DNA of 40,293 nt. Source: an uncultured Bacteroidota bacterium. GTDB lineage: Bacteria; Bacteroidota; Bacteroidia; Flavobacteriales; Flavobacteriaceae. Shown piece after piece: positions 14,820 to 19,518 of the stretch (positions are counted from its first letter, which is position 1; the number at the start of each line of letters is the position of its first letter). A program made the translations under genes and the position numbers. The notes beneath the pieces are model-generated. The model had not been told where the DNA came from, made no database searches, and saw only the letters and a program-made list of their open reading frames with translations. The stretch covers positions 1 to 40,293 of the forward strand of contig CABXVR010000011.1 in assembly GCA_902515565.1 (NCBI GenBank). The letters run 5' to 3'.

Positions 14820-16601
14820 ATGAATAAAATGAATATTGAATCTTCTTTACAAACAATTGCAGTTAAAGCAATCGAACAGTTATACAAAGTAAACATTGAT
14901 AGTGTCGAAATACAGCCTACAAGAACTGATTTTGAGGGAGATTTAACTATTGTTGTCTTCCCATTATTAAAACTTCTAAAAACTACCCCAATTGATTTAG
15001 CAAACAGTTTAGGTAATTATATAGTTGAAAATGAAAAATCATATACAACATTCAATGTTGTTTCAGGCTTTCTTAATCTTGTTGTTTCTGACAGCTATTA
15101 TTTAAATCATTTTAATGCAATAAAAAATGAAAATGATTTCGGTTTTGTTAAACCAACTTCAAATGATTGTACAATGATTGAATACTCTTCGCCTAACACC
15201 AATAAGCCACTACATCTTGGACATATTCGTAATAATTTGTTAGGCTATAGTGTGGCTCAAATACTTAAAGCATCTGGTAAAAATATTCTTAAAACTCAGA
15301 TAATAAATGATAGAGGTATTCATATATGTAAAAGTATGTTAGCCTGGGTTAAGTTTGGGAACGGAGAAACTCCTGATTCCACATCCTTTAAGGGAGATAA
15401 GCTAGTTGGAAAGTATTATGTTTTGTTTGACAAGGAATATAAAAACCAAATTAAATCTCTAATAGAGAATGGCACTTCAGAAGAAGATGCTAAAAAAAAT
15501 GCACCCATACTAATTGAAGCCCAGGAAATGCTTTTGCTTTGGGAGTCAGGTGATGAAGAAACTGTCAAGCTTTGGAAGACAATGAATGGATGGGTTTACA
15601 AAGGTTTTGAAGAAACTTATAAAAATCTTGGAGTAGATTTTGATAATTATTATTACGAAAGTAATACCTACCTCTTAGGTAAAGAGTTTATAAAAGAAGG
15701 TATTAATAAAAATGTTTTCTACAAAAAAGAAGATGGTAGTGTGTGGTGTGATTTGTCGAATGAAGGATTGGACGAAAAAATTGTTTTGAGATCTGATGGA
15801 ACTGCAGTCTACATGACTCAAGATATTGGTACAGCTATTCAAAGAGTTAAGGATTTTCCTAACATTAACTCAATGATTTACACTGTTGGTAATGAACAAG
15901 ATTATCATTTTAAAGTATTGTTCCTGATACTAAAAAAATTAGGTTTCAAATGGTCAGAAAACTTACATCATTTGAGTTATGGAATGGTTGATTTACCAAG
16001 TGGTAAAATGAAAAGTCGAGAAGGTACTGTTGTGGATGCAGATGATTTGTTACTAGAAATGACCAATACAGCTAAAGAAATATCGTCTGAGCTTGGAAAA
16101 TTGGAAGACATGGATCAAGAAGAGAAAAACAATGTTTTTGAGATTATAGGTAAAGCAGCCTTGAAATACTTTATTTTGAAAGTTGATCCAAAAAAGAGAA
16201 TATTATTTGACCCAAAAGAGTCTGTAGATTTTCAAGGAAATACTGGCCCTTTTATTCAATATTCATATGTTAGAATACAGGCTATTTTAAGAAAAGTAGA
16301 CTCTGTTAGCAATGATGATTATAACGGAATTTTAGACCCCAAAGAAAAAGAGCTGATAAAGCAGTTACTAAGCTTTCCTTTAGTGATTCAAAATGCCGCG
16401 AATACCCAAAGCCCTGCTTTAGTTGCTAATTATGTTTATGATTTGGTGAAGTTGTTTAATTCCTTTTATCAATCCTTACCTATATTAAAAACTTCTTTTG
16501 AAGATAGAAAAATATTTAGATTACAATTGTCTAAATCAGTTTCTTACACCATTAAAAATGCTTTGGATTTACTAGGTGTTGGTATAGTGCAAAGAATGTA
16601 G
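14820..16601 (+). CDS. argS: Arginyl-tRNA synthetase
   Basis: This class I synthetase charges tRNA-Arg. The 593-residue product has an N-terminal tRNA D-loop-recognition (Add1) domain, the ATP-binding HLGH at residues 132-135 inside SSPNTNKPLHLGHIRNN, the KMSKS-type loop KMKSR at 396-400 (SGKMKSREGT), and the C-terminal anticodon-binding DALR-like domain starting about 470 (FIQYSYVRIQAIL). A second ATG at 14829 is possible. It follows two arginine-related enzymes by 23 nt and ends before a two-way terminator shared with proteorhodopsin. Confidence 0.97.
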   Translation: MNKMNIESSLQTIAVKAIEQLYKVNIDSVEIQPTRTDFEGDLTIVVFPLLKLLKTTPIDLANSLGNYIVENEKSYTTFNVVSGFLNLVVSDSYYLNHFNAIKNENDFGFVKPTSNDCTMIEYSSPNTNKPLHLGHIRNNLLGYSVAQILKASGKNILKTQIINDRGIHICKSMLAWVKFGNGETPDSTSFKGDKLVGKYYVLFDKEYKNQIKSLIENGTSEEDAKKNAPILIEAQEMLLLWESGDEETVKLWKTMNGWVYKGFEETYKNLGVDFDNYYYESNTYLLGKEFIKEGINKNVFYKKEDGSVWCDLSNEGLDEKIVLRSDGTAVYMTQDIGTAIQRVKDFPNINSMIYTVGNEQDYHFKVLFLILKKLGFKWSENLHHLSYGMVDLPSGKMKSREGTVVDADDLLLEMTNTAKEISSELGKLEDMDQEEKNNVFEIIGKAALKYFILKVDPKKRILFDPKESVDFQGNTGPFIQYSYVRIQAILRKVDSVSNDDYNGILDPKEKELIKQLLSFPLVIQNAANTQSPALVANYVYDLVKLFNSFYQSLPILKTSFEDRKIFRLQLSKSVSYTIKNALDLLGVGIVQRM

Positions 16602-16622
16602 TAATTATTAAATATATTGCAT

Positions 16623-16656
16623 AAAAAAAGGCTACACAATCGTGTAGCCTTTTTTT
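16623..16656. terminator. Bidirectional terminator between argS and proteorhodopsin
   Basis: GGCTACAC and GTGTAGCC form a perfect 8-bp GC-rich stem around the tetraloop AATC, flanked by seven A on the left and seven T on the right. The whole element is a 15-bp perfect inverted repeat. It therefore gives a hairpin plus U tract in both directions, ending argS (stop at 16601) on the plus strand and proteorhodopsin (stop at 16682) on the minus strand. Confidence 0.93.
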
Positions 16657-16681
16657 ATATTGTTCAAAAGAATCTTTTAAA

Positions 16682-17398
16682 TTATGATTCTTTAACAGCT
16701 AAACCATATACAACAAGACCAAATCCGATTTTGTTGATAGCATCACCAATGTTGTATATTACTTCCATTGAAGGTAAAAACGCTTCAATACCGTTATACC
16801 ATCCATCAGTACCAGCCATATATCCTAATGGATAAATTGCCCAACCAACAAGAAGGAACCAACATAACATTTTGTGAGCTTCTAATACGTTTCCACCAGC
16901 AGCAACTGCTAGTTTTTTAAGACCACCTAACCATACTTCGTATGCGATCCAGAAATATGCTAAACCTGAGATGAATCCCCAAGCACCAGCACTTAACATT
17001 CCACCGTCCCATCCAGACTCTCCAAAGAATCCAGTGACAAGCATCACAGTTGAAAGTCCAATAAGCTTCCACATATCTGATTTAGTCGCTCCAGCAACTT
17101 TAAGTATTAAGTAAAACTCAACACACATTAATGGAACAGTTAAGATCCAGTCTACGTATCTGAATACAGTAGTACTATCTCCGGCTGCATGAGCATCTCT
17201 CATGTACATGTAATGTACAGCAGCAATAAATGTAATTAATCCTGAAACTAAAAGAGAAGTTCTCCATTTAGCATCAACACTGTTCATTGACAAGAAGAAA
17301 AACACAGATGCTGCCATCATAGCCATTGCTCCAAGCCAGAACGTAAATCCAGTGCCATCCGTAGGGACAGACATTGCAATAAAGTTTAAATAATTCAT
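16682..17398 (-). CDS. Proteorhodopsin, light-driven proton pump
   Basis: This is a seven-helix retinal protein of 238 residues that pumps protons out of the cell in light. Helix C carries Arg80, the proton acceptor Asp83, Thr87 and the proton donor Glu94 (RYVDWILTVPLMCVEF), i.e. the D-T-E motif of H+-pumping proteorhodopsins. The retinal Schiff-base Lys is Lys223 in DAINKIGFGL. His62 in HYMYMRD corresponds to the His paired with the acceptor. Met91 occupies the spectral-tuning position (105 in the reference protein), where Leu/Met go with green and Gln with blue absorption. The N-terminus may be a short signal/first-helix region. The nearby blh would supply retinal. Confidence 0.97.
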   Translation of the reverse strand: MNYLNFIAMSVPTDGTGFTFWLGAMAMMAASVFFFLSMNSVDAKWRTSLLVSGLITFIAAVHYMYMRDAHAAGDSTTVFRYVDWILTVPLMCVEFYLILKVAGATKSDMWKLIGLSTVMLVTGFFGESGWDGGMLSAGAWGFISGLAYFWIAYEVWLGGLKKLAVAAGGNVLEAHKMLCWFLLVGWAIYPLGYMAGTDGWYNGIEAFLPSMEVIYNIGDAINKIGFGLVVYGLAVKES

Positions 17399-17429
17399 AT
17401 TTGTTATTTTAAAAATTAATAGTTAAAGG

Positions 17430-17457
17430 CTAAAATACTAAATATTTTGCAAATCAA
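17430..17457 (-). promoter_or_regulatory. Possible promoter of proteorhodopsin
   Basis: Read on the minus strand, TTG (17457-17455) is followed after 17 nt by TATTTTAG (17437-17430). This differs from TAnnTTTG at one position and lies 31 nt before the start codon. The 178-nt gap upstream of proteorhodopsin, with an insulating terminator at its far end, supports a promoter here. This precise site is only a candidate. Confidence 0.35.
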
Positions 17458-17524: not shown

Positions 17525-17555
17525 AAAAAAGAACCCCGTTTTGAGGTTCTTTTTT
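17525..17555 (-). terminator. Terminator after the membrane protein upstream of proteorhodopsin
   Basis: AAAAAAGAACC pairs with GGTTCTTTTTT around a 9-nt loop. On the minus strand the hairpin is followed by a long U tract (the A run from 17521). It lies just after the stop of the minus-strand membrane protein at 17577, so that gene and proteorhodopsin are separate transcription units despite having the same orientation. There are T's on the plus-strand side as well. Confidence 0.8.
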
Positions 17556-17576
17556 ATTATTTTAAAAAATTATAAT

Positions 17577-18368
17577 CTATAAGGATTTGAAAGGTAAGTA
17601 TGGTCCTTTAATCCAATTTACTAATGTTGAAACTAAGCCAAAGAAGAATTTGTATATAACAATGTTAATATAAAGATTTATCAATGTAAACAATACTCCA
17701 ATAAATGCTGCAAAAACTCCCATTGCTCCAGCAATTGTCCAAGCATCCCCACCATTTCCTAACATGCTAAGGTCTGGATTCAATACAGCATCCATTGCAT
17801 CTGCAATTGCATAAGCTGGTGAATCAGAAAGCATTCCAAATAAAGCGCTGGTTCCCATTGAAGCCATTTCGACTAGACCAGCAGTCATGTTTCCAAGTCC
17901 ACCTCCAATATTTAATGTTGTAACAAAACTTAATGTAGCTCCAATTGCACCAAATAAGCCAACCATTGCTAAAACATATCCTGCCACCTTTATAATAGAA
18001 ATAGGAAGGTCTAGAAATATTAGATGAATGATCCCACTTTTAGAAGTTCCTAAATTATCACCAACATTACTTACTATTTTTGAAATAGGAAAAGCTGCGT
18101 AAGTCCATAAAAGCATTCCAATTAACATTCCGATAATACCCATTGCGTCCATACCATCAAATCCGCCATTCCAAAGAGGGCTTAAAGTTGAATATAAAAT
18201 ACCTAATAGAAATAAGAATGCACCTACACTAAAAATTTTGCCGATCCATCCTGCAATTGAGTTTTCAGATTCCTCAATACATGAATTCCATGAATTCCAA
18301 GGAAGCTTAGAGTTGACCATGTTTGGAGAGTCAACTACCATGTTAAAAATGTCTTTAATTTTGTCCAT
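17577..18368 (-). CDS. Unrecognised multi-pass membrane protein beside proteorhodopsin
   Basis: I do not recognise the family. The frame extends up to a TTG at 18398, but the ATG at 18368, preceded by an A-rich leader, gives a more natural 263-residue product. A hydrophilic N-terminus (about 1-40, with PWNSWNSCIEESENS) is followed by roughly five hydrophobic stretches near residues 41-62, 76-98, 120-148, 212-236 and 238-252. The region between 152 and 210 is rich in Gly, Met, Ala and Ser with several Asp, and may be a re-entrant or extracytoplasmic loop. It lies between proteorhodopsin and blh but has its own terminator. A role in rhodopsin assembly, ion coupling or membrane organisation is guesswork from context. 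Confidence 0.78.
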   Translation of the reverse strand: MDKIKDIFNMVVDSPNMVNSKLPWNSWNSCIEESENSIAGWIGKIFSVGAFLFLLGILYSTLSPLWNGGFDGMDAMGIIGMLIGMLLWTYAAFPISKIVSNVGDNLGTSKSGIIHLIFLDLPISIIKVAGYVLAMVGLFGAIGATLSFVTTLNIGGGLGNMTAGLVEMASMGTSALFGMLSDSPAYAIADAMDAVLNPDLSMLGNGGDAWTIAGAMGVFAAFIGVLFTLINLYINIVIYKFFFGLVSTLVNWIKGPYLPFKSL

Positions 18369-18603
18369 TTTGTTTAATTTTTTATGAGTTAGTTTCAAGT
18401 AAGTTAGTAAATTATTGTAACATTTTAAACTTATTGATCTATTAATTACCTGAATTAGAGTTATTTACAGGTTTGACTAGTGTTTGTTATTAAGCATTTT
18501 AATTGTGTTAATTCAACCCTTATTTCATTGTTTTGTGTCATTTGATAGATTTAATAATAAATTTTATTTGTACATTTCTGACTATATATTAACAAGCAAA
18601 AAA

Positions 18604-19518
18604 TTGAGTAATAACTTTTCTTCAAATAAAGATTTTAATGGAGTATTAATAGTTAGCTCTTTTTTTGCACTTTGGCTTTCTGCTCAAATATCGCCTGTCA
18701 TTGAATCAAATATCGCCTATATTATGATTCTTACAGTTGGAATTTTACATGGCTCTAACGACATAATGCTTGTAAATCACAGTATTAAGTCTAAGTCGAA
18801 CATTTCTAGCTTAAACATTTTTATAATTTATGTGCTAATGGTAGGGTTAGTTGCTGTTTTATTTTATTTTTTACCCTTTTTAGCACTGAGTCTGTTTGTT
18901 ATTTTTAGCTCTTATCATTTTGGAGAACAGCATTTTATTTCTAAAAGTAATACTAAAAACTATCTTATATCTTTGTATTTCACTTTCTATGGAATGTTGA
19001 TATTTTCAATGATATTTTTCTCTTCACCAGAAGATGTTATAATCATTGTTAATGAAATTACTAATGTTTTTATTACACAGGACTTTTTAAAAACATTGTT
19101 ATATTCTTCATTAATATCAACAATAATATTATCATTTCTCATGCACTACAAGAAATTTATAACATTCAACTTTTTTGAAGAGATAATTTTGATTGCTCTT
19201 TTGTTCGTAATCTTTAATATTGCTTCACTTATAGCTGGATTTGCAATATATTTTATTATTTGGCATTCGATTCCATCTCTTAGAGATCAAATTATAGAGC
19301 TTCATAGTGAATTCAATAAAAAGAATCTTTTAAAATATCTTAAAAACTCAGCACTTTACTGGTTAATTTCTATTGTTTCTTTAATTGTGCTTTATTATCT
19401 TGTTAATGATGATAAACTATTTATTTCATTGTTCTTTTCTTTTTTGTCAGCAATCACTTTTCCCCATGTACTTGTAATGTTTAATTTATTTAAGAATAAA
19501 TCCAAAGATTTAAGCTAA
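18604..19518 (+). CDS. blh: Brp/Blh family beta-carotene 15,15'-dioxygenase
   Basis: Blh cleaves beta-carotene into two retinals, the chromophore of proteorhodopsin. The protein is an integral membrane enzyme with about eight hydrophobic segments. Conserved His residues that would bind the iron appear in GILHGSND (His49), YHFGEQHF (His105, His110), IWHSIP (His221) and FPHVLVM (His288). The start is uncertain: the frame is open from a TTG at 18484, and the first in-frame ATG would cut off the first helix. The TTG at 18604 gives 304 residues, close to the usual family length, and is my choice. It is divergent from the unknown membrane protein and separated from ffh by 47 nt. Confidence 0.88.
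   Translation: MSNNFSSNKDFNGVLIVSSFFALWLSAQISPVIESNIAYIMILTVGILHGSNDIMLVNHSIKSKSNISSLNIFIIYVLMVGLVAVLFYFLPFLALSLFVIFSSYHFGEQHFISKSNTKNYLISLYFTFYGMLIFSMIFFSSPEDVIIIVNEITNVFITQDFLKTLLYSSLISTIILSFLMHYKKFITFNFFEEIILIALLFVIFNIASLIAGFAIYFIIWHSIPSLRDQIIELHSEFNKKNLLKYLKNSALYWLISIVSLIVLYYLVNDDKLFISLFFSFLSAITFPHVLVMFNLFKNKSKDLS

Follow-up and report, generated by a model that had tools for sequence, protein, structure and literature searches.

A 263-residue frame between the proteorhodopsin (PR) gene and blh, in a 40,293-nucleotide stretch of DNA from an uncultured flavobacterium (the window), encodes an inner-membrane protein that belongs to no known family. This protein, here called X, may well be an optional component of rhodopsin islands that moves from one species to another as a gene on its own. 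The window and a sister species (genome G004) share only 37% identity in X, whereas the adjacent PR is 99.6% identical at the protein level.

X and its family

The first-pass annotation had placed X between PR and blh, and both frame and coordinates proved correct. The ATG at 18368 lies near the start position of the homologues; an alternative upstream TTG at 18398 would yield a protein of 273 aa. Full-length homologues are present in other genomes and X is therefore a true gene. The region is organized as follows:

16620..16659, minus strand: PR terminator, between PR and argS (18-pair stem and T tail)
16682..17398, minus strand: proteorhodopsin, PR (PF01036, 3.4e-37)
17525..17555, minus strand: intrinsic terminator of X, ahead of PR (13-pair stem, then a T run)
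17577..18368, minus strand: X, 263-aa inner-membrane protein of no known family (open frame; homologues with similar start and end; no significant library match)
18484..19518, plus strand: blh, beta-carotene 15,15'-dioxygenase (PF15461, 1.3e-39; TIGR03753, 3.6e-53)

The start codon of blh is uncertain, the G004 copy being called from a later TTG. The genes flanking the trio are presumably argS and ffh. X had been proposed to be regulated separately from the rhodopsin, and its own terminator fits this proposal. A promoter scan gave 15 sigma-70-like sites compared to 19.4 expected from shuffled sequences; hence, the separate promoter that the proposal also implied is suggested only by the terminator and the gene order. 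Scanning for the Bacteroidota-type promoter motif yielded five sites, all on the plus strand and none placed for X or PR.

In agreement with the earlier statement that X matches no known family, neither the single sequence nor the aligned family gave a significant match in Pfam, NCBIfam, PHROGs, PADLOC or the PDB sequences. The Pfam search of X returned 0 families at E<=10, and thus no PF01036, which was also not among the families matched at E<=1 by any of 16 X members. PF15461 and TIGR03753 did not match X, and the best PADLOC model reached E=0.074 in one of 17 X members. A degenerate rhodopsin or Blh was ruled out by profile-profile comparison: hhalign of the X family against 14 PRs gave E=0.15 (probability 0.4%, 36 columns) and against 7 Blh proteins E=0.41 (15 columns). 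An internal duplication was likewise ruled out (hhalign E=0.25 over 17 columns). Searches of phages, viral contigs and plasmids ruled out a phage or plasmid gene; a relative of X was confirmed in no viral contig (pattern-based search) and in no plasmid, and the best phage rows, two Gordonia phage with E=0.09 over 61 residues, were taken as chance. In a literature search, with most subscription papers outside its reach, X was named in no title or abstract start.

Microbial rhodopsins (PF01036) and X are both helical membrane proteins of similar length and are gene neighbors, but X shows no profile match to them and its models have four long helices where rhodopsins have seven. The Brp/Blh beta-carotene dioxygenases (PF15461, TIGR03753) are also membrane proteins encoded next to X, yet here, too, a profile match is lacking. 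According to an excerpt of PMC2739507, the Anabaena sensory rhodopsin transducer family occurs with rhodopsin, has relatives also in rhodopsin-less bacteria, and forms a beta-sandwich. It is mentioned as a parallel only and no homology is claimed, X being a helical membrane protein.

About five membrane segments had been proposed for X. Hydropathy and charge instead favor four membrane helices with the termini inside, and two AlphaFold models, of the window X (16 rows; pLDDT 65.5, pTM 0.60) and of X from genome G415 (17 rows; 66.8, 0.62), contain the same four long helices. Given the modest confidence of both models, the number of helices and the topology may be incorrect. The helices probably span about residues 44-66, 78-98, 125-150 and 212-240, with both ends in the cytoplasm. 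The composition noted earlier for residues 152-210, rich in Gly, Ala, Met and Asp, was confirmed in the sequence. This region corresponds to:

17736..17918, minus strand: residues 151-211 of X, variable acidic Gly/Met/Ala-rich segment, putative periplasmic loop (conservation, charge, pLDDT)

The segment has a mean pairwise column identity of 0.16, whereas the eight remaining segments reach 0.28-0.42 (based on 10 representative rows out of 16). Its net charge is -5.1, and the model pLDDT falls below 50 over residues 172-206. Invariant positions in the 16-row alignment include D13, P15, S34, D120, G130, Y239, P256 and P259. At the column of residue 100 an Arg is nearly invariant, the window itself having a Ser. 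X would display a conserved cytoplasmic TM2-TM3 hairpin (Arg column 100, Asp-120, Lys/Arg-127) and a conserved C-terminal tail. Foldseek searches with the models found no structure at E<=0.001; the best E-values were 0.38 and 0.019 in the PDB and 0.081 among viral models. The row at E=0.019 is a channelrhodopsin with a TM-score of 0.17, and several of the non-significant rows are rhodopsins. VIA rows reached Z-scores of up to 7.2, the usual level for helical bundles.

X or its remnants were found in 22 genomes: 18 carry a full-length gene, one a copy cut by a contig end (G001) and three a degraded copy (G403, G561, G1027). Among 99 relatives, 5 carry X, one of them as no more than a C-terminal piece where a contig begins. 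The order sample yielded 9 of 395 genomes, family f7 8 of 88, family f18 2 of 117, the class sample 5 of 375 and the phylum sample 2 of 395. There is overlap among the samples, and the window's genome is included in those of relatives, order, class and phylum; G403, recognized as a pseudogene carrier later, is scored as X-negative in the order, f7 and PR tallies. A scan of genome contigs gave four X loci, one of which is also G1196; its contig is identical to L006 of G805 and was counted once. All X genomes of stated kinship belong to the window's class (the kinship of G806-G808 is not given). According to the first-pass annotation, a wide distribution of X in flavobacteria lacking rhodopsin would have spoken against its interpretation; the family turned out to be rare in every sample searched. 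Comparison shows X to be a real, rare and unclassified protein family.

Occurrence beside proteorhodopsin and blh

The PR search covered 20 of the 22 X genomes (G1230 and G1027 were left out) and was positive in 16. PR was not found in G056 (90% complete), G380 (84%, X intact), G808 (completeness not stated) and G890. The latter is 99% complete and carries an intact X, although the search batch with G890 gave no match in its four genomes or in the controls, while the same model matched in other batches. A Blh-type domain exceeded the cut-off in 12 of 19 X genomes tested; the twentieth genome of that search, G003, gave no X match. Within the order sample, PR was over the cut-off in 8 of 9 X genomes compared to 89 of 386 others (Fisher one-sided 7.6e-5, kinship ignored); within family f7 the figures were 7 of 8 and 51 of 80 (p=0.17). 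Conversely, 89 of the 97 PR genomes in the order sample had no X match. Co-occurrence with PR, suggested earlier as a check, is thus seen as enrichment in the order sample and not as a strict partnership. PR is more frequent with X, yet X also occurs without PR; hence, X shows enrichment with PR without being tied to it, and is not always or nearly always found with it.

X directly adjoins PR in seven genomes of three families with different surroundings. In family f1 these are the window (G000), G001, G002 and G004; in f7 G383 and, with X as a pseudogene, G403; in f18 G561, where X is a remnant. Adjacency is probable from contig ends also in G197 and G415, in which the starts of X and of PR each lie no more than about 230 bases from the end of a contig; the ends do not overlap, and the order hyp-blh-PR in the X-less genome G179 makes the X-PR order plausible. 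The blh gene directly adjoins X in the window, G004 and G415, so that X lies between blh and PR in the first two and probably in the third. Orientation of X to PR varies, being same-strand (window, G001, G004), convergent (G002) or divergent (G383, G561). Other genes lie beside X in G056, G380, G890, G1230, G1027, the genomes of genus g129 and L006-L009. In the ASP10-05a group (L007:6939-10867), X is located near what we take to be genes for an AraC-type regulator and a cytochrome c peroxidase-like protein.

Several features of these loci were noted in passing. On L091 (G1230), a full-length X and the frame adjoining it lie at 346-762 and 863-1678; the adjoining frame is presumably an IS3-type transposase. 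Contigs break within X in G001, at the edge of X in G197 and G415, and at its expected place in G003, the breaks being at L005:1-81, the starts of L057, L056 and L040, and the end of L038; mixed population alleles could cause them. A lycopene cyclase (CrtY, PF05834) and a Blh-type dioxygenase (PF15461) are naturally fused in single open frames, 657-683 aa long, at L064:214-2214, L060:1489-3537 and L080:2464-4434, and fused frames lie beside PR in G376 and G324.

The two nearest frames on each side of 20 X loci (71 frames) were compared all against all. PR was the only immediate neighbor common to several lineages (g1, g125, g172), and blh was the first or second neighbor in the same three. The only other neighbor shared across lineages was a weak second-place match to dxs (24%). 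This recurrence of PR and blh across lineages indicates that the position of X is not due to chance. It also makes it quite improbable that X and PR are simply both mobile and land in the same exchangeable spots without any shared selection, as chance contact with PR is estimated at about once per 750 lineages (two neighbors, some 1,500 genes). Such hitchhiking would nevertheless account for the different genes adjoining X elsewhere and for the way in which blh, X and PR are each present or missing independently of one another in the g125 island described below. A single inherited PR-X cassette was ruled out: the PRs beside X do not form one clade (5 rows versus 9, AU p=0.0009; two of the five PRs are adjacent by inference only and the window PR is a long branch).

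A dedicated partnership of X with PR in phototrophy, by way of PR folding, retinal handover from Blh to PR or ion balance, is rather unlikely. It is in line with the contact of X with PR in three families and with blh in two, with its place between the two genes, and with the frequency of PR and Blh-type domains among X genomes. Against it stand the many PR genomes of the order without an X match, the intact X of G890 and the variable orientation, to which the replacement and decay described in the next section are added. Moreover, in six PR-containing flavobacterial genomes, all that were then available, only the genes for PR, blh and a photolyase-like flavoprotein were present throughout and absent from 13 others, according to an excerpt of PMC2668756.

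Replacement and decay of X

Compared with G004, 18 other syntenic frames of the window, PR included, show 86-99.6% protein identity. Two tracts were delimited by DNA alignment:

16390..17456, no strand: tract nearly identical to G004, apparently carrying a recently exchanged PR (17 differences, 6 inside PR)
17560..18332, no strand: divergence crater, with X a distant allele compared with that of G004

Inside the crater there are 41-63 identities per 100 alignment columns, compared with 76-100 in the flanking blocks (two gapped end blocks were left out); the values are 98-100 for PR, 76-79 just outside X and 84-92 for blh. The edge of the PR tract toward X is sharp at about 17456, with dense differences from 17457 on, and the edge on the argS side is approximate. 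Fourfold sites of PR are 98.2% identical (111 sites), in contrast to 52-70% in nine other genes, X apart; the argS part of G001 was ignored as out of frame, and several gene ends are displaced by a few codons, with no bearing on the contrast. The near-identical silent sites together with the sharp edge suggest that PR was recently exchanged or shared and that X was replaced.

Phylogenetic analysis agrees with replacement. The window X and the X of L006-L009 fall into one group (support 100/99). Monophyly of the three full-length X of the genus was rejected (p=5.5e-6), as was a grouping of the window X with that of G004 (p=8.9e-5); only 17 X rows, several near-identical, were available, and the trees carry long-branch warnings for G004 X and window PR. 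Simple rapid evolution of X was ruled out by other pairs. X identity is 97 and 94% within L007-L009, 99.6 and 94.7% within g129, 90% between G415 and G197, and 70 and 65% in two wider pairs; in all seven it lies within or above the range of its neighbors (for g129, two rows of 31-42%, likely paralogue matches, were left out of that range). All five g1 genomes are incomplete (64.75-82%), and the main technical doubt is that an assembly chimera may be present at PR or X.

Since X differs by 63% beside an almost unchanged PR, a close fit of X to PR is not expected. Decay of X points in the same direction. The island of the f7 genus g125 reads metB-trkA-hyp-[blh]-PR-trpS, where the names of the flanking genes are presumptive. 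G383 carries X in this island. The copy of X between PR and trpS in G403 (L072:5337-6099), whose PR is 96% identical to that of G383, is a pseudogene containing frame breaks and an internal deletion. G407 lacks X and has a short gap at its place; its PR shares 98% identity with the one in G383. G380 carries X, but PR was not found there. In both G403 and G561, X is degraded beside an intact PR. This comparison of genomes shows that X is acquired, swapped, disrupted and lost independently of PR.

Replacement in place between the window and G004 would also be expected of an envelope protein kept variable by frequency-dependent selection, for instance a target of phage or contact toxins or an immunity protein, with the island a mere site of swapping. 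The acidic segment, variable where the rest of X is conserved, the contig breaks in or at X or its expected place, which mixed alleles could cause, and the transposase-like frame beside X in G1230 would fit as well. We consider this unlikely, as the other pairs show no hypervariability of X, and X has no significant relative in PADLOC, PHROGs, phages or viral contigs and, by eye, no conspicuous toxin, phage or defense gene nearby.

Implications for rhodopsin islands

We therefore return to X as an optional, singly exchanged membrane protein. Small-genome bacteria of the Bacteroidota type would carry it in their rhodopsin gene islands and exchange it horizontally on its own. Most likely, X would be an accessory protein of the envelope that acts alone in the energized inner membrane and is of benefit in those cells and under those conditions in which PR pays off, and would not be a bound subunit of PR or Blh. 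Its activity might lie in transport, signaling or envelope stress. The light-related role proposed by the first-pass annotation is upheld in part: the recurrent place of X next to PR and blh speaks for it, whereas the swap, the decay and the occurrence of X without PR speak against a dedicated rhodopsin or retinal partner. A role in light use is possible, and a function as PR subunit or in retinal transfer is less likely. Adjacency in three families could reflect a tighter tie to PR than the optional, singly exchanged protein allows. A further-reaching reading would make X the founder of a new membrane-protein family that modulates rhodopsin phototrophy in these bacteria, recruited beside PR several times, with swapped alleles tuning a periplasmic function and PR spreading separately through the same locus; we regard this as rather doubtful.

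PR islands are commonly taken to consist of PR together with retinal synthesis. The present analysis adds an unclassified membrane protein that recurs in them. PR and X are seemingly exchanged between species gene by gene with opposite outcomes, PR being homogenized and X replaced. X is thus a concrete candidate for a function accessory to light-driven pumping, and the window and G004, with the same PR beside a different X, provide a natural contrast.
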